Shown: piece by piece, positions 30,684-39,750 of the stretch
Numbering within the stretch: position 1 is the stretch's first letter
Layout: each line of letters starts with the position of its first letter
Source: Agromyces luteolus
GTDB taxonomy: Bacteria; Actinomycetota; Actinomycetes; Actinomycetales; Microbacteriaceae
Length of the DNA: 64,000 bases
Assembly: GCF_009729855.1 (NCBI RefSeq)
Contig: NZ_WODA01000002.1
Location: 1-64,000 of the forward strand
Direction: 5' to 3'
Notes under the pieces: model-generated
Told to the model about the DNA's origin: nothing
Seen by the model: only the letters and a program-made list of their open reading frames with translations
Databases searched by the model: none
Made by a program: the position numbers and the translations under genes

Positions 30684-30689
30684 GCTCTG

Positions 30690-30762
30690 CGCGCCCGGAG
30701 GGACTCGAACCCCCAACCTTCTGATCCGTAGTCAGATGCTCTATCCATTGAGCTACGGGCGC
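30690..30762 (-). tRNA. tRNA-Arg (anticodon ACG)
   Basis: This 73-nt tRNA has a 7-bp acceptor stem (GCGCCCG/CGGGCGC) and D arm AGCTCAATGGATAGAGC. The anticodon loop contains ACG, and the T arm contains GGTTCGAGTCCC. CCA is not encoded. A34 is the substrate of TadA, encoded in this window, so it becomes inosine and reads CGU/CGC/CGA. Confidence 0.97.
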
Positions 30763-30929
30763 ATGGGATGTCGCCCGGAACCTCTCGGCTCATCAGGCAA
30801 CCCGGTTACTCTATCTCACGCCGCGGCCTCGCGCCAATCGAGCGCGTCGGCCCGGGCGCGTCGTCGCGCGGTTATCCCCGATCGGAAGCCGAGCCTCCAC
30901 TCGGCGGCCGCCGGCATTAGCATTCCGCC

Positions 30930-31253
30930 ATGGGCAAGCTGATCTACAACTCCTCGAACCGCGAGATCGAGATCGAGGACCGCACGCTCGCGCACCTGCG
31001 CGTCGCCATCATCAACAAGCTGCGTCGGTCCGAGAGCTTCGCCATGACCTGGGAACACGGCATCGAGCACGGGAGCGGCCGCACCACCCTCTGGCTCCAC
31101 GAGTCGGTGCCCCTGCAGTTCGTGTTCAGCGGCAACCGCCCGCCGAAGCTCAACCGCCTGTGGATCGAGCAGATGCTGCTCTCCGCCAACAGCACGAGCG
31201 GGCTGCAGAACGTGCCGGAGCCCGAGGAGAACGAGCCCTTCGACTTCGAGTGA
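30930..31253 (+). CDS. DUF7882-family small protein, paralogue 1
   Basis: This 107-residue protein is one of three paralogues here (others at 31952-32305 and 35874-36215). The shared pattern is MGxLxY, RxLAHL, KLRRxESF, W.H, GRxxLWLH, PLxFVF and a final LMxxAN segment, ending in an acidic tail. In databases such proteins are often labelled ATP-dependent DNA ligase, but there is no KxDG motif or nucleotidyltransferase fold. They are now grouped as DUF7882, and their function is unknown. TAGCAT at 30918-30923 ends 6 bases before the ATG, so it should be leaderless. This copy is the most divergent (MGKLIYNSSNREIEIED). Confidence 0.8.
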   Translation: MGKLIYNSSNREIEIEDRTLAHLRVAIINKLRRSESFAMTWEHGIEHGSGRTTLWLHESVPLQFVFSGNRPPKLNRLWIEQMLLSANSTSGLQNVPEPEENEPFDFE

Positions 31254-31325
31254 GCGGATGCCGGCGGCTGCGTGGATGCTCGATCGCGCCCCGCGACGCA
31301 CGGTGCCCTCCCTTCCGTGATAACA

Positions 31326-31406
31326 GCCGCCCGTTCGGGCGGCAACCCCTCGATCCGCGGGTCGGGTCGTGCCTACGGTGGCCGCCGCGTGCGATCCCGC
31401 ACGCGG
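31326..31406 (+). promoter_or_regulatory. Two hairpins between DUF7882-1 and the SRPBCC gene
   Basis: GCCGCCCG/CGGGCGGC with a 2-nt loop (31326-31343) is terminator-like after the DUF7882 gene. A second, 9-bp perfect hairpin (CCGCGTGCG, loop ATCC, CGCACGCGG; 31385-31406) ends only 4 bases before the GAAGGGAG ribosome site of the SRPBCC gene, so it may be an operator or a leader structure. Confidence 0.5.
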
Positions 31407-31424
31407 GACGGAAGGGAGATCACC

Positions 31425-31955
31425 ATGAGCACGACCGTGACCGCCGACATCGAGGTGGACGTGCCGGTTCGCGTGGCCTACGACCAGTGGACCCAGTTCG
31501 AGACGTTCCCGCGCTTCATGAGCGGAGTGGACTCCATCCGCCAGGTCGATGACGCGACGACGCACTGGGTGGTGTCGGTCGGCGGGGCCACCCGCGAATT
31601 CGACGCGGACGTCTCCGACCAGGTTCCCGACGACCACGTCGCCTGGCACAGCACCACCGCCGAGGTCGACCATCGCGGCCGCGTCGAGTTCCGTCCGGTC
31701 TCGGACGACCGGACCCGCGTCGACGTCACGCTCGAGTGGGAGCCGGAGGGCTTCGTGGAGAAGGCGGGCGCCGCGCTCGGCGTCGACGACCGGCAGGTCG
31801 AGCACGACCTGCGGAAGTTCAAGGAGTTCATCGAGTCCCGCGAGGCTCCGACCGGGGCCTGGCGGGGTGAGGTCCACGGGGGCGGCGCAGCCGCCGACCA
31901 GGGCGCGCTCGGCGACGACGGGATCGTCGGCCAGGACCCGGACCTCCGCCCCTAG
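31425..31955 (+). CDS. SRPBCC-family protein (cyclase/dehydrase-like)
   Basis: This 176-residue START/SRPBCC-fold protein has a hydrophobic ligand cavity. The opening pattern (VDVPVRVAYDQWTQFETFPRFMSGV) is typical of the polyketide cyclase/dehydrase and coenzyme Q-binding Coq10-like group. In Actinobacteria such proteins are often stress-associated, and the ligand is unknown. The last ~30 residues are a Gly/Asp-rich tail outside the fold. GAAGGGAG lies 7 bases before ATG 31425. Its TAG stop shares the tetranucleotide CTAG with the stop of the convergent DUF7882 gene. Confidence 0.85.
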   Translation: MSTTVTADIEVDVPVRVAYDQWTQFETFPRFMSGVDSIRQVDDATTHWVVSVGGATREFDADVSDQVPDDHVAWHSTTAEVDHRGRVEFRPVSDDRTRVDVTLEWEPEGFVEKAGAALGVDDRQVEHDLRKFKEFIESREAPTGAWRGEVHGGGAAADQGALGDDGIVGQDPDLRP

Positions 31956-32305
31956 GCGCTCGCGGGGTCGGGCCCGTCGACCTCGTCGGCGGCGCCCGGC
32001 GCCGGGTCGAGGTGCTCGGGCACGAGTTGGATGCCACCCGTGGAGTTCGCGCTCCGCATGAGCTCCTCGAGGTAGGTCCGGCTGAGCTCCGGCGGCTCGG
32101 GATCGTCGAACACGAATCGCAGCGGGATGTTCGGGTGGAGCCACAGCGTGCTGCGCCCGTCCGGCTGATCGTCGGGGTGCTGCCACGACACCGTGAAGGA
32201 CTCGCCCCGGCGGAGCTTCGTGACCACGGCGACCTGCAGATGCGCCAGCGCCCGGTCCGCTATGCCGATCGCGGTCCCGGCGTTCCCGTAGTACAGCGTG
32301 CCCAT
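31952..32305 (-). CDS. DUF7882-family small protein, paralogue 2
   Basis: This 117-residue protein shares the full pattern of its paralogues: MGTLYYG, RALAHLQVAVVTKLRRGESF, GRSTLWLHPNIPLRFVF, LMRSANSTGG. It has an acidic, Ala/Pro-rich tail of about 20 residues. The minus-strand TAGCCT (32318-32313) ends 7 bases before the ATG, predicting a leaderless message. It ends exactly against the SRPBCC gene. The conserved KLRR and LWLH segments suggest a small alpha/beta fold binding nucleic acid or a protein, but that is inference. Confidence 0.8.
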   Translation of the reverse strand: MGTLYYGNAGTAIGIADRALAHLQVAVVTKLRRGESFTVSWQHPDDQPDGRSTLWLHPNIPLRFVFDDPEPPELSRTYLEELMRSANSTGGIQLVPEHLDPAPGAADEVDGPDPASA

Positions 32306-32424
32306 GGCGACGAGGCTACCGCGACGCGCTCGACCGCACGCCGTACGCGGTCCGTCAACCCCCTCGGCCCATCCCGTGCACGCGCGTAGCGTGACCGCAC
32401 GGACACTCGGAAGAGGAGGCCTGC

Positions 32425-33306
32425 GTGCAGGACCACCTGGTCGACCCGACCACGAAGCACACCGCGGAGCCGTTCCCGCAGCAGGAGCAGCTCCCGCCCG
32501 GCATGACCCCGCGGATGACACCGCAGCCCGACCACGGCGAGTACAGCTACCGCGGCGCGGGCCGATTGGCGGGACGGCGAGCGCTCATCACCGGCGGCGA
32601 CTCCGGCATCGGCCGGGCCGTCGCGATCGCGTTCGCCAGGGAGGGTGCGGACGTCGCCATCTCGTACCTGCCCTCCGAGCAGGAGGACGCCGACGAGACG
32701 GCCTACTGGATCCGCGACGCGGAGCGGCGCGCCGAGCTCCTGCCCGGCGACCTCGTCGACGAGCAGCACTGCGCCGACCTCGTCGAGCAGACCTGCGACG
32801 CGTTCGGCGGCATCGACCTGCTCGTGCTGAACGCGGCGCACCAGCGCGACCGGGGCGGCATCGACGAGGTGCCGACCGACGACTTCGACGAGGTCATGCG
32901 CGTCAACCTGTACTCGAGCGTGTTCCTCGCCCGGGCGGCGGTACCGCGCATGGACGCCGGCTCGTCGATCATCACGACGTCGTCGATCCAGGGCTTCGAC
33001 CCGTCATCCCGTCTCGTGGACTACGCGATGACGAAGGCGGCGCTCGTGGCGTTCACGAAGGCGCTGGCCGAGGAGCTCGGGCCCCGCGGCATCCGCGTCA
33101 ACTCGGTCGCGCCCGGCCCCATCTGGACGCCGCTCATCCCGTCGACGGGATGGCCCGACAAGCTGCCGAAGTTCGGCCAGGACACGCCGCTCGGCCGCGC
33201 GGGGCAGCCGGCCGAGCTCGCGGGCGCCTACGTGTACCTCGCGTCGGACGACGCGTCGTTCACGTCGGGCGCGATCCTGCCGGTCACCGGGGGCAAGCCC
33301 CTCTGA
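32425..33306 (+). CDS. SDR-family oxidoreductase, general-stress GSP39/YghA type
   Basis: This 293-residue short-chain dehydrogenase carries the N-terminal extension typical of the B. subtilis GSP39 and E. coli YghA group (QEQLPPGMTPRMTPQPDHGE). The NAD(P) motif is ITGGDSGIGRAVA, and the catalytic Tyr-Lys pair is in VDYAMTKAAL. The C-terminus ends in LPVTGGKPL. Substrate is unknown, possibly an aldehyde or sugar. Members are induced by general stress. The GTG at 32425 is supported by GAGGAGG 6 bases upstream. A gene for a small Rho-N/SAP-like protein follows by 40 bp. Confidence 0.9.
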   Translation: MQDHLVDPTTKHTAEPFPQQEQLPPGMTPRMTPQPDHGEYSYRGAGRLAGRRALITGGDSGIGRAVAIAFAREGADVAISYLPSEQEDADETAYWIRDAERRAELLPGDLVDEQHCADLVEQTCDAFGGIDLLVLNAAHQRDRGGIDEVPTDDFDEVMRVNLYSSVFLARAAVPRMDAGSSIITTSSIQGFDPSSRLVDYAMTKAALVAFTKALAEELGPRGIRVNSVAPGPIWTPLIPSTGWPDKLPKFGQDTPLGRAGQPAELAGAYVYLASDDASFTSGAILPVTGGKPL

Positions 33307-33346
33307 CCGGCGCCACGACCCCGCACGGAAGGAAGGAGAGACCGAC

Positions 33347-33619
33347 ATGCCCGGCAACCGACGAGGACAGAACTCGCTGAAGGACCCGGAACTGTACGAG
33401 GAGCTCCGCGACGACGGCGCCTCCAAGGAGAAGGCCGCCCGGATCTCCAACGCGGCCGCAGCGCGGGGCCGTACGGCGGTCGGCAGGAAGGGCGGCGAGT
33501 CCGGCAGCTACGACGACTGGACCGTGCCCGAACTGAAGAAGCGCGCGAAGGAACTCGGCCTGACGGGCTACAGCGGCAAGCGCAAGGGCGAGCTCATCGA
33601 CGCCCTGCGCAACCACTGA
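33347..33619 (+). CDS. Small DUF7218/Rho-N-like (SAP-type) protein
   Basis: This 90-residue basic protein has an N-terminal segment seen in DUF7218 proteins (SLKDPELYEELRDDGASKEKAARISNAA). The C-terminal SAP/Rho-N-like motif, WTVPELKKRAKELGLTGYSGKRKGELIDALR, is a helix-turn-helix fold that usually binds DNA or RNA. It is likely a small nucleic-acid-binding protein, and its partner is unknown. It lies between the stress dehydrogenase and topoisomerase IB, whose ATG is 10 bp beyond its stop, so co-transcription with the topoisomerase is likely. AAGGAGAG precedes the ATG. Confidence 0.8.
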   Translation: MPGNRRGQNSLKDPELYEELRDDGASKEKAARISNAAAARGRTAVGRKGGESGSYDDWTVPELKKRAKELGLTGYSGKRKGELIDALRNH

Positions 33620-33629
33620 GGGGCGACGG

Positions 33630-34604
33630 ATGCCGCGACTGCGACGCGTCGAACCGTACGCGTCACCCGGGCTCACGCGCCGTCGCAGCGGTCGCGGCTT
33701 CACCTACCGCCACGCGGACGGATCGGCCGCCGACCGCGCCGATCGCAACCGGATCGCGGACCTCGCGATCCCGCCCGCGTGGGACGACGTCTGGATCGCC
33801 GAAGCGCCGAACGCGCACATCCTCGCCGTCGGCGTCGACGCGGCCGGCCGTCGCCAGTACCTGTACCACCCGGTCTGGCGCGAGCGGCAGGACGCCGAGA
33901 AGTTCGAGCGGATGACGGCGCTCGCCGAGGTGCTCCCCGCGGCTCGGCGCGGGGTCCGCCGCGACCTCGCGCTCGACGAGCTGCTGCGCGAGCGCGTGCT
34001 CGCCGCGGCCTTCCGCACGCTCGACCTCGGCGCCATCCGGATCGGGTCGGAGGAGTCGCTCGCGCAGGCCCGCAGCCGCGGGCTGACGACGCTGCTCGTG
34101 CGGAACGCCCGCCTGGACGGCGTCGACGCCGTGCGACTCCGGTTCCGCGCGAAGGGCGGCGTCGCGCAGGAGCTCGTGCTGGAGGATGCGGCGCTCGCGG
34201 CGTTCGTGGAGGGGATGTCGGGCCGCTCGCCGGCGGCGAGGCTCTACGCGTTCGCGGAGGGTCGGCGCATGAGGCCGCTCGGTCCGATCGACGTCAACGA
34301 GGACATCCGGTCGCGGACGGGCGGCGACTTCACGGCGAAGGACTTCCGGACGCTCCGTGGGACGATCGCGGCGGCGGACCGGCTCGCGGAGCTCGGCACC
34401 GCCGGAACGACGCGCGCCCGTTCCGCCGCGGTTCGGGAGGCGATCGTCAGGGCGAGCGAGGTGCTCGGCAACACGCCCGCGATCGCGAAGGCGAGCTACG
34501 TGGACCCGCGGGTCGTCGAGGCGTACGAGCACGGCCGCCTGGTGGGACTCCGGGGCGGACGGGAGCGCGCACTGCTGCAACTGCTCGTCGACGACGTCGC
34601 CTGA
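33630..34604 (+). CDS. Poxvirus-type DNA topoisomerase IB
   Basis: This 324-residue type IB topoisomerase relaxes supercoils by a 3'-phosphotyrosyl intermediate. The nucleophile is Y290 in AKASYVDPRV. The N-terminal domain (about 15-95) and the catalytic core with the conserved arginines and DVNEDI / GDFTAKDFRTLRGT motifs match bacterial poxvirus-like enzymes. This enzyme is not universal in bacteria and is scattered in soil Actinobacteria. It follows the Rho-N-like gene with a 10-bp gap. GAGGGGCG upstream of ATG 33630 supports the start. Its neighbours link it to the DNA repair/stress block. Confidence 0.93.
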   Translation: MPRLRRVEPYASPGLTRRRSGRGFTYRHADGSAADRADRNRIADLAIPPAWDDVWIAEAPNAHILAVGVDAAGRRQYLYHPVWRERQDAEKFERMTALAEVLPAARRGVRRDLALDELLRERVLAAAFRTLDLGAIRIGSEESLAQARSRGLTTLLVRNARLDGVDAVRLRFRAKGGVAQELVLEDAALAAFVEGMSGRSPAARLYAFAEGRRMRPLGPIDVNEDIRSRTGGDFTAKDFRTLRGTIAAADRLAELGTAGTTRARSAAVREAIVRASEVLGNTPAIAKASYVDPRVVEAYEHGRLVGLRGGRERALLQLLVDDVA

Positions 34605-34721
34605 ACCGTGCGGCGGCCGTGCGTCTGCTGGGCATCCTCCACATGTGCGTCGAGCGGTACATACGCCGCCATACGCTAGCCCTATCCACTGCGGGCGGAT
34701 GCCCGCGAGACACCGGCTGGG

Positions 34722-35849
34722 AAGTCGACGACGACGGGCCGGATCATCAGCGCATCACTCATCCCTGCACCGCACCTCGGTGCGCTCCGCACCACGAAGC
34801 CGCGCGGTGATCGCCCCGGCGTCACCCAGAGCTACGCGGCCCTGTCGCAGGTCATCAAGGAGAGCGGGCTGCTCCGCCGGACGCCGATCTTCTACTCGCT
34901 GCTGGTCGGCGGGCTCGTGCTCGCACTGGGAGGCGCCGTCACGGGCTTCGTCCTGCTCGGCGACACCTGGTACCAGCTGCTCATCGCAGGGGCGCTCGGG
35001 ATCATCTTCACGCAGTTCGCCTTCTTCGCCCATGAGGCGTCGCACCGCGCGGTGCTCTCGTCGGGCCGAGCCAACGACCGCGTCGGACGCCTCGTCGCGA
35101 CGGCCATGGTCGGCATCAGCTACCAGTGGTGGATGACGAAGCATACGCGGCACCACGCGAACCCGAACCGGATCGGCAAGGACCCGGACATCGAGTTCGA
35201 CACGATCTCCTTCACCGAGGAGTCGGCGGCGCGGCAGCGCGGGATCATCGCGTGGATCACGCGCCGACAGGGCTGGCTGTTCTTCCCGCTGCTCCTCCTC
35301 GAGGGCCTCAACCTGCACGTCACGTCGATCCGCTCGCTGTTCGAGCGCCGCGCGATCCCCGGGAGGGCGTTGGAGCTCACGCTCATCGCGGTGCGCCTCG
35401 GCGCCTATGTCGCCGTCGTGTTCTGGTTCCTGCCGCTCGGCATGGCGTTCGCGTTCCTCGGGGTGCAGCTCGCCGTCTTCGGCGTGTACATGGGCGCATC
35501 CTTCGCGCCGAACCACAAGGGCATGCCGATCGTGCCCGCCGACGCGAAGCTCGACTTCCTGAGCAAGCAGGTGCTGACGAGCCGCAACATCACGGGTCGC
35601 TGGACCGGCGCGCTCATGGGCGGCCTGAACCACCAGGTCGAGCACCATCTCTTCCCGAGCATGCCGCGACCGCATCTCGGGCGGGCGCGGGAGATCGTCA
35701 GGGAGCACTGCCGCTCGATCGGCGTCCCCTACACCGAGACGACCCTGCTCGACTCGTACGGCATCGTGGTGCGGTACCTGAACCGGGTCGGGCTCTCGGC
35801 GCGCGACCCGTTCGACTGTCCCGCTGCGGGCGAGTTCCGTCGACGCTGA
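34722..35849 (+). CDS. Membrane fatty acid desaturase, start codon uncertain
   Basis: This protein is an acyl-lipid/acyl-CoA desaturase using a diiron centre. The His boxes are HEASHRAV, HTRHHANPN and NHQVEHHLFPS, with 4-6 membrane helices between them. The frame is open from 34680 to the stop, but it has no ATG, GTG or TTG before the GTG at 34917, which lies inside the first membrane helix. Family-like sequence (LIPAPHLGALRT, PGVTQSYAALSQ) begins well before it. I place the start near 34722, where AAG precedes TCGACGACGACG; in a typical relative this would be ATG (MSTTT). Either a non-standard start is used or the gene has lost its start. Confidence 0.8.
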   Translation, partial: KSTTTGRIISASLIPAPHLGALRTTKPRGDRPGVTQSYAALSQVIKESGLLRRTPIFYSLLVGGLVLALGGAVTGFVLLGDTWYQLLIAGALGIIFTQFAFFAHEASHRAVLSSGRANDRVGRLVATAMVGISYQWWMTKHTRHHANPNRIGKDPDIEFDTISFTEESAARQRGIIAWITRRQGWLFFPLLLLEGLNLHVTSIRSLFERRAIPGRALELTLIAVRLGAYVAVVFWFLPLGMAFAFLGVQLAVFGVYMGASFAPNHKGMPIVPADAKLDFLSKQVLTSRNITGRWTGALMGGLNHQVEHHLFPSMPRPHLGRAREIVREHCRSIGVPYTETTLLDSYGIVVRYLNRVGLSARDPFDCPAAGEFRRR

Positions 35850-35873
35850 CTCCGCCCGTCCGGAAGCGGGAGC

Positions 35874-36215
35874 CTACGCCGCCTCGACGGGCTTCGGTCC
35901 GGTCGGCTTCCGCGCGGCCGCGTGCTCGAGGTCGAGCACGATGCCTCCGCCCGAGTTGGCGCCGCGCATGAGGTCCTCGATCCACTCGCGGTCGAGCTCG
36001 CCGGCCTCGGGCGTCTCGAACACGAACCGGAGCGGGATCGCGGGGTGGAGCCACAGCGAGCTGCGGCCGCGCGTCGGGCCGTCGACGTGGCGCCAGGAGA
36101 GGGTGAAGCTCTCGTTGCGACGGAGCTTCGTCGTGATGGCGATCTTGAGGTGGGCGAGGGCTCGGTCGTCGATCTCGATCGGCGTGCCGGCGTCGCCGTA
36201 ATACAGGGTTCCCAC
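35874..36215 (-). CDS. DUF7882-family small protein, paralogue 3
   Basis: This 113-residue protein is the closest relative of paralogue 2: MGTLYYGDAG, RALAHLKIAITTKLRRNESF, GRSSLWLHPAIPLRFVF, LMRGANSGGG. It has a short basic Ala/Pro tail. GTG start; the minus-strand TAGTGT (36227-36222) ends 6 bases before it, so it is leaderless. It is encoded next to ligD on the same strand, starting 54 bp after the ligD stop. It may share regulation with the NHEJ genes. Confidence 0.8.
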   Translation of the reverse strand: MGTLYYGDAGTPIEIDDRALAHLKIAITTKLRRNESFTLSWRHVDGPTRGRSSLWLHPAIPLRFVFETPEAGELDREWIEDLMRGANSGGGIVLDLEHAAARKPTGPKPVEAA

Positions 36216-36268
36216 GGCTGAACACTAACCCCCGTCCGGGTGTCAGCGAAATCATCCGTTCGATTCAT

Positions 36269-38734
36269 TCACCCGGGGTGCGCGTCGGCGTCCCCCGGAC
36301 CCGCCCCGGCCTCGAACCCCACGTCGCCCGCCGCCTTGTCGGGCCTGAGGCCTCGCCAGCGCGGATGCCGCGCCACCCCGGTCCGCGTCCACTCGCCGAA
36401 CTCGATCTCCCCGACGACCTCGGGCCGGACCCAGACGGCGTCCGCGGCGTCCGCGGCCGGGACGTCGATGAACGGCGAGGTGTCCCCCGCGAGCCCGTCG
36501 AGCACTCCCTGCAACCGCTCGGTCTCGCGCTCGCGGAGGCCGGACCCGACGCGGCCCGCGTAGCGGAGCCCGTCGGGGGTCGGCACGCCGACGAGCAGCG
36601 AGCGTATGCGGCCGACCCGCGTGCCGGACCCCATCCGGTACCCGCCGATGACGACCTCCTGGGTCCGCGAGAGCTTGACCTTGACCCAGTCGTCGCTCCG
36701 GACGCCGGGCTCGTAGCGCGAACCGCGTCGCTTCGCGACGATCCCCTCGAGCCCGAGCCGTCGCGCCTCCTCGAGCGCGTCCTCCGCGCCCCGCCCCACG
36801 ACCGGCGGCACGTCGACGGGTGCGTCCGCGTTCGGCCGCACGAGGCGTTCGAGTCGCTCGCGCCGGCGATCGTACGGCTCGTCGACCGTGGGGGTGCCCG
36901 CCACCTCGAGCACGTCGAACAGTTGCAGTCCGACCGGGACGGATGCCGCGGCCGCGGCGATCTCGCGCGGCTTGCCGAGGTTCATCCGGCGCTGCAGCAG
37001 CCCGAAGTCGGGCCGGCCCTCCTCGTCGAGTGCGACGATCTCGCCGTCGACCACGGCGTCCGCGCGGAGCGCGGACCCGAGCCCCGCGAGCTCCGGGTAC
37101 GTCGCCGTCTGGTCGATCCCGTTGCGGCTGACGAGCCGCGCGACGCCGTCCTCCACGCGGGCGACGACGCGGATGCCGTCCCACTTCCACTCGATCGCCC
37201 AGTCGTCGCCCGAGACGAGCCCGGGCGTGCCGGCGACCGCGAGCATGGGCTTCGGCACGGGATCGCGCGGGACCGCGCCGGCCGTGCGGAGCGCGCGGGG
37301 CGTCGACGTGGCCGGCGCGGCCGCGGCATCCGCCCCTCGCCCCTCGACCGCGGCGCCGCGCTGCTCCTTCATGCGGTGCAGCAGCCACTGGCTCTTCTCG
37401 CCGTCGCCCTGCGTGCGGATGAGCGCCAGGCGTACGCGGCCGAGCGGGCCGCCGACCCGGCCGTGCAGCGTGAAGATGACCTCGTCGTCGCGCCACTTCT
37501 CGGTCTCGTAGGTGCCCGTGTCCCACACCGTCATGCCCCCGGCGCCGTACTGGCCGTCGGGGATCGTGCCCTCGAAGACGAGGTACTGCATCGGGTGGTC
37601 CTCGGTCTGCACGGCGAGGTGGTTCGCGCCCGTGTCGTCCGGCACGCCCTTCGGCACCGCCCAGCTCTTCAGCACGCCGTCGCGCTCGAGCCGCAGGTCG
37701 AAGTGCAGGCGCCGCGCGTGGTGCTCCTGGATCACGAAGCGCGGGTCGCCGTCGTTCGCGACGCCCCACGCCGAGTCGGGCATGGGCTCGGGCGTCGAGC
37801 CGGCCGTGCGCATCGAGAGGTACGTGCTGAGCGGCCCGTCGGCGGAGGCCCCGGTGACCTCGAGCATCGGATCGCCGCGCTCGGACACGATCGCGACCAC
37901 CTCGTCGGCTTCGAGCTGGCGCAGGTCCGGATCCTCGAGCTCGTCCCACGTTCGCGGCGCCGCGACCGTCGGACGGAAGCGGCCGCGCAGGGAGTACGGC
38001 GCGATCGTCGTCTTCTTGGCGTTGTTCTGGCTCCAGTCGATGAGCACCCTGCCGCTGCGGAGGGTCTTCCGCATGCTCGACACGACCAGGTCGGGGTGGT
38101 CGGCCTCGAGGGCCCGTGCGAGTTCGTGCGCGACGGCCGACACCTGCTCCGAGGTCTGCGCGCCGTCGAGCGGCGCGTAGAGGTGGATGCCCTTGCTGCC
38201 GCTCGTCACCGGCACGGGGTCGAGGCCGATCGGGTGCAGGAGGTCGCGGACCATGCGCGCGACCTCGGCGCACTCGGCGAGGCCGACGCCCTCGCCCGGG
38301 TCGAGGTCGAACACCATTCGGTCGGGATTCGCGGGCGCGCCCGACGCGTCGAAGCGCCACTGCGGCACGTGCAGCTCGATGGCGCCCATCTGCGCGAGCC
38401 ACACGAGCGTCGCCCGGGCGTCGGCGATCGGGTACGTCTTGTCGCCGTCGGAGTGGTGCTGGATGCCTCGCCGGATCCACTCGGGCGCGTGCTCGAGGTT
38501 CTTCTCGAAGAAGGCCTGCTCCGGATGGCTCGGGGTGCCGACCCCGTTCACCCAGCGCTTGCGCGTGATCGGCCGCCCGGCGACGTGGGGCAGCATCACG
38601 GGTGCGATCTCGGCGTAGTAGGCGATCATCTCGCCCTTGGTCATGCCGGCCTCCGGGTACATGACCTTGTCGAGGCTCGTCAGACGCAGCCGACGTCCGT
38701 CGACGTCGACCAGCTGCGCGGGGCCCTGCGCCAT
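36269..38734 (-). CDS. ligD: Multifunctional NHEJ DNA ligase D (polymerase-phosphoesterase-ligase)
   Basis: This 821-residue protein performs end processing and sealing in bacterial non-homologous end joining with Ku. The domains are in the mycobacterial order. The polymerase is about 1-300, with the catalytic DxD at D143/D145 in MVFDLDPGEG. The 3'-phosphoesterase (about 325-465) has HHARRLHFDLRLERDG. The ATP-dependent ligase (about 500-810) has the adenylated K517 in WKWDGIR and ends with the OB fold. A poly-Ala/Thr linker separates the last two. CAGGAT (38746-38741, minus) lies 6 bases before the ATG, implying a leaderless message. It is divergent from ku. Confidence 0.97.
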   Translation of the reverse strand: MAQGPAQLVDVDGRRLRLTSLDKVMYPEAGMTKGEMIAYYAEIAPVMLPHVAGRPITRKRWVNGVGTPSHPEQAFFEKNLEHAPEWIRRGIQHHSDGDKTYPIADARATLVWLAQMGAIELHVPQWRFDASGAPANPDRMVFDLDPGEGVGLAECAEVARMVRDLLHPIGLDPVPVTSGSKGIHLYAPLDGAQTSEQVSAVAHELARALEADHPDLVVSSMRKTLRSGRVLIDWSQNNAKKTTIAPYSLRGRFRPTVAAPRTWDELEDPDLRQLEADEVVAIVSERGDPMLEVTGASADGPLSTYLSMRTAGSTPEPMPDSAWGVANDGDPRFVIQEHHARRLHFDLRLERDGVLKSWAVPKGVPDDTGANHLAVQTEDHPMQYLVFEGTIPDGQYGAGGMTVWDTGTYETEKWRDDEVIFTLHGRVGGPLGRVRLALIRTQGDGEKSQWLLHRMKEQRGAAVEGRGADAAAAPATSTPRALRTAGAVPRDPVPKPMLAVAGTPGLVSGDDWAIEWKWDGIRVVARVEDGVARLVSRNGIDQTATYPELAGLGSALRADAVVDGEIVALDEEGRPDFGLLQRRMNLGKPREIAAAAASVPVGLQLFDVLEVAGTPTVDEPYDRRRERLERLVRPNADAPVDVPPVVGRGAEDALEEARRLGLEGIVAKRRGSRYEPGVRSDDWVKVKLSRTQEVVIGGYRMGSGTRVGRIRSLLVGVPTPDGLRYAGRVGSGLRERETERLQGVLDGLAGDTSPFIDVPAADAADAVWVRPEVVGEIEFGEWTRTGVARHPRWRGLRPDKAAGDVGFEAGAGPGDADAHPG

Positions 38735-38740
38735 GCCCCC

Positions 38741-38796
38741 ATCCTGCCCGCCGCAGCGGGCAAGGGGTATCGCTCCAGCCGGGCGGGGTGTGTACT
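38741..38796. promoter_or_regulatory. Divergent ligD / ku promoter region
   Basis: CAGGAT on the minus strand (38746-38741) and TGTACT on the plus strand (38791-38796) each lie 6 bases before their start codons. Both genes should therefore be leaderless and could be co-regulated from the 68-bp gap between start codons. Confidence 0.5.
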
Positions 38797-38802
38797 GGGG
38801 GC

Positions 38803-39750
38803 ATGCGAGCCGTGTGGAAGGGGGCGGTCACGTTCGGCCTCGTCAACGTGCCCGTCAAGCTGTACAGCGCCACCGAGGACCACGACGTGTCCCTGCACCA
38901 GGTGCACGACGCGGACGGCGGGCGGATCCGCTACCAGCGCGTGTGCGAGATCGACGGCGAGGTCGTGCCGTACCAGCACATCGACAAGGCGTACGACGAC
39001 GGCGAACGCACCGTCATCATCACCGACGAGGACCTGAAGTCGCTGCCCGCCGAACGCAGCCGTGAGATCGAGGTCGTCGAGTTCGTGCCGACCGACCAGA
39101 TCGACCCGATCATGTTCGACCGCAGCTACTACCTCGAGCCCGACTCGGCGTCGAACAAGGCGTACGTGCTGCTGCGCGAGGCGCTCGAGTCGACGGACCG
39201 CACCGCGGTGGTACGGATGGCGCTGCGCCAGAAGACGCGGTTGGCCGCGCTCCGCGTGTTCGGCGACGTGCTCATGGTGCAGACCCTGCTCTGGAGCGAC
39301 GAGGTGCGCCAGGCGAACTTCCCGGCGCTCGACGAGCCCGCGAAGATCACGTCGAAGGAGCTCGACCTGTCGAAGCAGCTCATCGAGAGCCTGTCGAACG
39401 ACTTCGAGCCCGAGCAGTTCGTCGACGAGTACCAGCAGGAGCTCCGCACGCTGATCCAGGCCAAGCTCGAGCAGGGCGACGCCCTCGACACGGCCGCCAC
39501 GTTCGGCGAGCAGCCCGAGGAGGAGGGCGGCGAGGTGATCGACCTCATGGAGGCGCTGCGCCAGTCGATCGCCGCGAAGCGCGGCGGCGGGGCGGATGAC
39601 GCGAAGTCCTCGTCCTCGGCGAAGCCGGCGTCGAAGTCCTCGTCGTCGAAGAAGCCGGCTGCGAAGGGCTCGAGCACGACGTCGTCGAAGTCCGGATCGT
39701 CCGATGAGAAGCCGGCGGCGAAGCGCCGCACCGCCAAGAAGGCGGGGTGA
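38803..39750 (+). CDS. ku: Non-homologous end-joining protein Ku
   Basis: This 315-residue bacterial Ku forms a homodimeric ring on double-strand ends and recruits LigD. The beta-barrel core (about 1-260) opens with MRAVWKGAVTFGLVNVPVKLYSA and includes YYLEPDSASNKAYVLLREAL. The C-terminal 50 residues are a Ser/Lys/Ala-rich tail, a known feature of extended actinobacterial Ku that aids DNA binding and sliding. ATG 38803 gives the standard N-terminus. It is divergent from ligD. Confidence 0.97.
   Translation: MRAVWKGAVTFGLVNVPVKLYSATEDHDVSLHQVHDADGGRIRYQRVCEIDGEVVPYQHIDKAYDDGERTVIITDEDLKSLPAERSREIEVVEFVPTDQIDPIMFDRSYYLEPDSASNKAYVLLREALESTDRTAVVRMALRQKTRLAALRVFGDVLMVQTLLWSDEVRQANFPALDEPAKITSKELDLSKQLIESLSNDFEPEQFVDEYQQELRTLIQAKLEQGDALDTAATFGEQPEEEGGEVIDLMEALRQSIAAKRGGGADDAKSSSSAKPASKSSSSKKPAAKGSSTTSSKSGSSDEKPAAKRRTAKKAG

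Follow-up and report, generated by a model that had tools for sequence, protein, structure and literature searches.

Three genes for small proteins of the DUF7882 family lie within 5.3 kb in the genome of the soil bacterium Agromyces luteolus, in an island shared with the genes for Ku, LigD and DNA topoisomerase IB (TopoIB). The analysed DNA was a stretch of 64,000 nucleotides (assembly GCF_009729855.1, contig NZ_WODA01000002.1, positions 1 to 64,000), called here the window, and the three genes were designated copies A, B and C. Their positions in the window, and those of the putative -10 boxes ahead of them, are as follows.

30918-30923, plus strand: -10 box TAGCAT of copy A, 6 bases to the ATG
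30930-31253, plus strand: DUF7882 copy A, 107 residues, ATG start, MGKLIYNSS type (PF25355, E 7.8e-39)
31952-32305, minus strand: DUF7882 copy B, 117 residues, ATG start, MGTLYYG type (PF25355, E 2.5e-37)
32313-32318, minus strand: -10 box TAGCCT of copy B, 7 bases to the ATG
35874-36215, minus strand: DUF7882 copy C, 113 residues, GTG start, MGTLYYG type, adjoining ligD (PF25355, E 8e-37)
36222-36227, minus strand: -10 box TAGTGT of copy C, 6 bases to the GTG

Proteins matching the PF25355 profile at more than 27 bits were taken as DUF7882 members. Copies A, B and C scored 132, 127.2 and 125.6 bits and are 48-62% identical to one another, in agreement with an earlier note on this DNA, made from the letters alone, which had described three related small proteins, one of them directly beside ligD. 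Six copies are present in this 3.9 Mb genome, the remaining three on other contigs. When six copies were placed at random, three fell within 5.3 kb in 12 of 200,000 trials. The same note held that these proteins carry no ligase motif although databases often name them ligases, and this was borne out. The K.DG motif is absent from copies A-C, as compared with KWDGIR in LigD; no ligase domain was matched by A-C in Pfam or by A and C in NCBIfam, and neither the Pfam (A-C) nor the NCBIfam searches found a nucleic-acid-binding or catalytic domain. With motif and domain both missing, a ligase, polymerase or Ku activity of DUF7882 was rejected. Yet the RefSeq label 'ATP-dependent DNA ligase' stands under the best match in 7 of 17 plasmid records with DUF7882. 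For proteins of about 100 residues this name is without sequence support.

The genes around copies A-C are given below. The order along the island is glucoamylase-type, amylase-type, tRNA-Arg, A, SRPBCC, B, SDR, DUF7218, TopoIB, desaturase, C, LigD and Ku, the two amylase-related names being a reading of the sequence by eye, with no family search made.

30689-30762, minus strand: tRNA-Arg(acg), at the island edge, shortly before copy A
31425-31955, plus strand: SRPBCC (polyketide cyclase-like) protein with a Shine-Dalgarno-like leader (PF03364)
32425-33306, plus strand: SDR oxidoreductase (PF13561; best NCBIfam model PRK06128, under its cut-off)
33347-33619, plus strand: small protein with DUF7218 and a Rho_N/SAP-like part (PF23855, PF07498; SAP under cut-off)
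33630-34604, plus strand: DNA topoisomerase IB (PF01028, PF21338)
34917-35849, plus strand: fatty acid desaturase, start uncertain (PF00487)
36269-38734, minus strand: LigD with primase-polymerase, phosphoesterase and ligase domains (PF21686, PF13298, PF01068)
38803-39750, plus strand: Ku, start set at MRAVWKG by inference (PF02735, TIGR02772)

To follow the island in the genus, 22 loci (L007-L028) from 17 named Agromyces genomes were collected with copy C as query; found with so close a query, these relatives are not a random sample. At 15 of the 22 loci, from 15 of the 17 named genomes, the DNA fetched around a DUF7882 gene includes both Ku and LigD. Ku was not seen in the stretches from A. 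tardus (L017) and A. salentinus (L024), nor at five loci from genomes already counted. Of the 15 loci, all hold DUF7218, 12 hold TopoIB, 12 SRPBCC, 11 SDR and 3 the desaturase. Copy C is 96% identical in A. bracchium and 92% in A. kandeliae, where the entire island is similar. Counterparts of copy A are likewise present at this island in other Agromyces. A core of Ku, LigD, DUF7882 and DUF7218 is kept across Agromyces, while spacing and the remaining genes vary. The three DUF7882 copies are fixed in this genus within an island of stress and end-joining genes (Ku, LigD, TopoIB, DUF7218, SDR, SRPBCC).

The earlier note had also placed a TANNNT -10 box 6-7 bases ahead of each start codon, and the boxes were found at exactly this spacing. 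Across the window only 21 of 3284 ATG or GTG triplets have TANNNT 6-7 bases ahead. With a gap of 5-8 bases the motif precedes all 54 DUF7882 copies in the Agromyces loci, island and other loci taken together (gap 5 in 2 copies, 6 in 34 and 7 in 18), although these copies are kin to one another and not independent. It is absent ahead of the remaining three A. luteolus copies, and it precedes 11 of 98 copies from other genera and, with starts only roughly called, 55 of 444 further genes in Agromyces and 82 of 666 elsewhere. In Mycobacterium tuberculosis, TANNNT motifs are centred 7-12 bp ahead of the transcription start site, and leaderless transcripts make up 26% of the genes having a primary start site (PMC3898074). 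In copies A-C the motif is so positioned that transcription would begin at the start codon itself, and the three genes are probably leaderless. SRPBCC, DUF7218 and SDR have Shine-Dalgarno-like leaders in the rows listed for the Agromyces island. No stress sigma-factor promoter of the GTTT-N-GGGTAT type was seen on inspection by eye only, and a literature search returned no title on leaderless genes in Microbacteriaceae. Outside Agromyces, the leaderless promoter was considered as a marker of closeness to Ku, LigD, TopoIB or DUF7218; the strict pattern occurs in 4 of 15 near and 7 of 83 far copies (p 0.06), and no such association is claimed. A relaxed pattern, picked after inspection, occurs in 8 of 15 near and 9 of 83 far copies, and independent pairs on the tree were indecisive.

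In the genomes sampled, DUF7882 was seen only in Microbacteriaceae. Of 197 genomes sampled from the class, 8 have it, these being 8 of the 9 Microbacteriaceae included and none of the 188 others. Among 100 Microbacteriaceae genomes, 62 carry 1 to 15 copies each. A phage origin was rejected, as copy A had no match up to E 0.01 in 50,697 phage records and neither copy A nor the three small families described below had a PHROGs match. An anti-phage defence role was likewise set aside, with no PADLOC match for six proteins.

Distances between DUF7882 and candidate partner genes were measured for the best-scoring listed copies, 152 (from 53 genomes) of about 287, including two copies of this genome. 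Removal of the two Agromyces genomes left 144 copies. The expected counts assume random placement, with a flat genome of 3.4 Mb in the tests for DUF7218, for any of the three partners, for the neighbours of Ku and for companion 2 (see below); since the genomes are related, the Poisson p-values are too small. TopoIB lies within 6 kb of 12 listed copies (0.51 expected), or 7 without Agromyces (0.49), and Ku within 6 kb of 6 (0.48), or 4 without Agromyces (0.45). Again without Agromyces, the counts at 3 kb are 3 for TopoIB (0.24 expected) and 1 for Ku (0.23), and Ku reaches 5 copies at 20 kb (1.52 expected). DUF7218 was found within 3 kb of 10 copies (0.10 expected), or 5 of 144 without Agromyces (0.08). 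Any of the three is within 6 kb of 17 copies (1.22 expected), or 12 of 144 without Agromyces (1.14). Stand-alone LigD-type primase-polymerase genes not within about 3 kb of Ku, picked by hand as a control, gave 1 copy within 6 kb (0.64 expected). The survey of distances to ku and topoisomerase IB that the earlier note had called for therefore reveals a real positional link, in which TopoIB and DUF7218 stand out more than Ku, whose share in it is thin once Agromyces is removed. The link holds for a minority of copies; about nine-tenths of those listed are away from all three genes.

The earlier note had gone on to suggest a role in DNA end joining or damage response. Stated fully, copies A-C would assist non-homologous end joining as accessory factors, working with Ku and LigD (and DUF7218 and TopoIB) at broken DNA. 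In favour of such a role are the conservation of the island in Agromyces and the enrichment near TopoIB and DUF7218 in other genera, which is thinner near Ku. A further DUF7882 gene of A. luteolus, accompanied by both companions (see below), lies 1.4 kb away from a LigC-type ligase, and in another genus a companion 2 gene is placed between Ku and LigD (L151, 2071-2373); both speak for the role as well. DUF7882 also co-occurs with Ku. Their presence agrees in 90 of 100 genomes (both in 56, DUF7882 only in 6, Ku only in 4, neither in 34), and in genomes of at least 2.4 Mb the counts are 55, 6, 4 and 13; for TopoIB in the same genomes they are 55, 6, 5 and 12. These co-occurrence tests, and the one for DUF7218 below, are confounded by relatedness and lifestyle, Ku and DUF7882 both being missing from reduced genomes. 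Against such a role stand the nine in ten listed copies located elsewhere, the links to rhodopsin, c-di-GMP, ferritin and ANTAR genes, the six genomes with DUF7882 but without Ku, the lack of a nucleic-acid-binding or catalytic domain in the searches above, and companion 2, which is not clearly near Ku. The enrichment part of the suggestion stands, and a specific end-joining role of A-C is possible; as an account of the three copies we consider it unlikely. Because most other copies lie elsewhere, A-C look like general stress adaptors and not like dedicated DNA-joining parts.

The neighbours of DUF7882 outside Agromyces were surveyed within 4.5 kb. Clustered genes include SDR (10 loci), Dps-like ferritin (6), GAF-ANTAR (4), EAL-like (4), PAS-GGDEF (3), rhodopsin (4), sigma-70 (3), TopoIB (4) and Ku (4). 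These counts are descriptive, as some genes at loci of lower GC content escaped the gene caller and there was no control. Pfam was run on one member each of the ferritin, GAF-ANTAR, GGDEF, sigma-70 and rhodopsin clusters, and the names EAL and Dps-like come from reading the sequence. Because loci L142 and L147-L157 were chosen by their neighbours, counts made on fetched loci (neighbours, promoters, tree) lean towards Ku, TopoIB and rhodopsin; the distance tests for DUF7882 and companion 2 are independent of this choice. The Dps-like ferritin genes are at L139, L144, L151, L105, L117 and L163.

The variety of these neighbours raises the question of whether DUF7882 merely gathers in variable, stress-gene-rich regions, its closeness to Ku and TopoIB reflecting such accumulation and the vertical descent of a single arrangement in each lineage. 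Plasmids point in this direction. DUF7882 is found in 17 plasmid records from six Microbacteriaceae genera, and in three of four plasmid regions opened it stands beside insertion sequence (IS) elements, sigma factor, Asp23 or GAF-ANTAR genes; since plasmid copies adjoin IS elements and stress-type genes, DUF7882 may move between replicons. Plasmids NZ_CP121273.1, with six DUF7882 places, and NZ_CP043654.1 both have copies in such surroundings. Several of the near copies also fall in single clades (MGYLIYG, MGTLYYG) when 120 copies are placed on a tree (101 columns, many forks unresolved). The tree took 120 of 155 rows, after most Agromyces loci had been thinned and a duplicate locus and short rows dropped; 3 of 158 profile matches without a nearby start codon had been left out before. 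Copies B and C belong to a starred MGTLYYG clade, which also holds two leaderless-type copies from other genera, and copy A to a starred Agromyces clade. In a third starred clade (MGYLIYG..EYEI, 10 rows) 6 members lie near TopoIB, DUF7218 or LigD, 3 of which (L147, L150, L151) had been fetched for such neighbours. Further, DUF7882 and DUF7218 are not associated in genomes of at least 2.4 Mb (both in 26, DUF7882 only in 35, DUF7218 only in 8, neither in 9; p 0.79). Three results do not fit a shared neighbourhood only: the primase-polymerase control was not enriched, the DUF7218 link persists where Ku is elsewhere or absent (genomes G199, G214, G246 and G251), and the Ku-LigD-DUF7882-DUF7218 core persists in Agromyces despite varying spacing and other genes. 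On balance this explanation seems rather improbable.

Stronger associations were found with small families that have no database name. Companion 1 (about 70-100 residues) occurs at 32 places in 24 of 100 Microbacteriaceae genomes. At 27 of these it lies directly downstream of DUF7882, while 5 are without; 25 of the 27 follow a listed DUF7882 and 2 were recognised by profile in fetched loci, one with its DUF7882 split over two frames. In 7 of 9 places listed the gene overlaps the DUF7882 stop by 4 bases. Companion 2 (about 110-120 residues, multi-copy, with a GPASQL-like strand) occurs at 127 places in 49 of 100 genomes, 43 of which have a listed DUF7882 no more than 3 kb away (0.78 expected). 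Within 6 kb it was found near DUF7218 in 4 cases (0.14 expected), and it is not clearly enriched near Ku (1; 0.43 expected), TopoIB (2; 0.44) or the control (1; 0.64). Across the class sample, companion 2 was seen in 4 of 197 genomes, all Microbacteriaceae. One or two members of each companion were searched, with no match in Pfam, NCBIfam, PHROGs or PADLOC. A third small family (86-91 residues, FSPG motif) was seen close to DUF7882 at four loci, beside genes of cyclic di-GMP (c-di-GMP) type, and is kin to companion 1 (hhalign probability 91%). Positions within the fetched loci are as follows.

L107, 2660-2959, plus strand: companion 1, example
L107, 3005-3361, minus strand: companion 2, example
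L107, 4079-5146: LigC-type ATP-dependent DNA ligase (PRK08224)
L029, 10354-10629: third small family
L090, 5341-5616: third small family
L103, 5416-5679: third small family
L158, 3807-4067: third small family

In the A. luteolus genome each companion occurs once, with the one DUF7882 copy near the LigC-type ligase mentioned above (contig C26, outside the window). The mistaken ligase name may stem in part from this neighbour. These nameless families are the strongest genetic partners of DUF7882 found, and are reported here for the first time.

The AlphaFold2 model of the DUF7882 monomer (pLDDT 88.3, pTM 0.78) has the order strand-strand-helix-strand-strand-strand-helix, and companion 1 is predicted to follow the same order up to residue 65. 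The top VIA-align match of both models is Rv3208A, titled octameric/hexadecameric, the resemblance being weak. A profile search found no solved homologue of DUF7882 up to E 1; the one for companion 1 returned nothing beyond weak matches that looked unrelated (best E 0.012). Direct homology of DUF7882 to DUF3107, the family of Rv3208A (PF11305; 7rur, 7rus), was rejected, since 26 of 60 shuffles scored as high; so was that to the third small family (45 of 60) and to companion 2, which was close to shuffles (3 of 60 as high). DUF7882 differs from DUF3107 in being longer, with a C-terminal helix, and in being multi-copy and patchy, whereas DUF3107 is single-copy and near-universal in Microbacteriaceae (39 of 40). 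No direct profile match links the two, and PF11305 finds only one other gene of this genome. With the Ku and LigD genes, finally, copies A-C have the island in common, but DUF7882 is without a ligase, polymerase or Ku domain. A literature search returned no title on Agromyces end joining, or on Microbacteriaceae small proteins or ligase names.

Among the papers searched only one names DUF7882, which it treats as a putative transducer for a single group of rhodopsins (PMC12227055). The family was deposited after putative CryoRhodopsin transducers had been described there; these are proposed to be cytoplasmic ring-formers, modelled with AlphaFold3 as pentamers whose strands pair with the rhodopsin C terminus. 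The bacterial PH domain (3DCX) has a similar ring and strand-pairing architecture in the models of that paper; the DUF7882 monomer model here differs in its order of strands and helices, and no PH chain was among the structural matches listed, an absence that does not count against a PH fold. Copies A-C match the same profile and resemble the putative transducers in small size and in a variable C-terminal tail. They could therefore be CryoRhodopsin transducers themselves, the more so as Pfam founded the family on CryoRhodopsin neighbours (PMC12227055) and rhodopsins of any type lie within 6 kb of 5 of the 152 listed copies (0.18 expected; 4 genomes, all less than 1 kb away). Unlike those proteins, copies A-C sit in an end-joining and TopoIB island, have leaderless-type promoters and belong to clades apart from the rhodopsin-linked copies. 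No match to Bac_rhodopsin was found in this genome, which contradicts such a role here, and 50 of the 62 DUF7882 genomes (hand count) have no rhodopsin above cut-off. For the window copies this identity is extremely unlikely.

The interpretation we tentatively favour, at somewhat less than even confidence, is that copies A-C are leaderless-type paralogues of a family of small soluble proteins that act as ring-forming adaptor or scaffold subunits, different paralogues being recruited to different stress or sensing modules. By analogy with the CryoRhodopsin proposal and the weak structural match, the N-terminal hairpin, the helix and three further strands would form a sheet whose edge strand could take a short client peptide; the small subunits would assemble into rings, and the variable tail may pass a signal onward. 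The island copies, made from leaderless-type promoters, would serve one or more island products. Judged by gene positions, TopoIB or DUF7218 would be a somewhat likelier client than Ku. A bolder extension, which we regard as improbable, is a private Microbacteriaceae adaptor system in which DUF7882 and its two partner families, as distant kin of the Rv3208A fold, would form mixed rings with interchangeable clients (rhodopsins, c-di-GMP enzymes, DUF7218/TopoIB, Ku/LigD), the Agromyces trio coupling a stress signal to end joining.

These results give a recently named family a new setting and new partners. DUF7882 now appears as a multi-copy system found across Microbacteriaceae, strongly linked to unnamed partner genes and repeatedly placed near end-joining genes and TopoIB; its most striking aspect is the suite of small partner proteins spread over the family. 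For work on CryoRhodopsins it provides a rhodopsin-free comparison set, and for work on end joining a candidate accessory factor.

Two further observations concern the end-joining genes. DUF7218, with its Rho_N/SAP-like end, is present in 35 of 100 Microbacteriaceae genomes and lies within 6 kb of 13 of 60 Ku genes (0.10 expected), as compared with 11 of 60 for TopoIB (0.20 expected); it may itself be an accessory of end joining. The Ku and LigD genes of the window are divergently oriented, with 68 bases (38735-38802) between their starts if the inferred Ku start is taken. Neither shows the strict leaderless pattern in Agromyces (0 of 17 each). LigD is ambiguous, because AGGAT before its ATG can also be read as a Shine-Dalgarno sequence. 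In 9 of the 10 rows listed for Ku, a TNTACT-like hexamer was seen by eye 6-7 bases before the ATG, with TTCACT in the tenth, and Ku in Agromyces may thus be leaderless too, from a TGTACT-like hexamer at this spacing.

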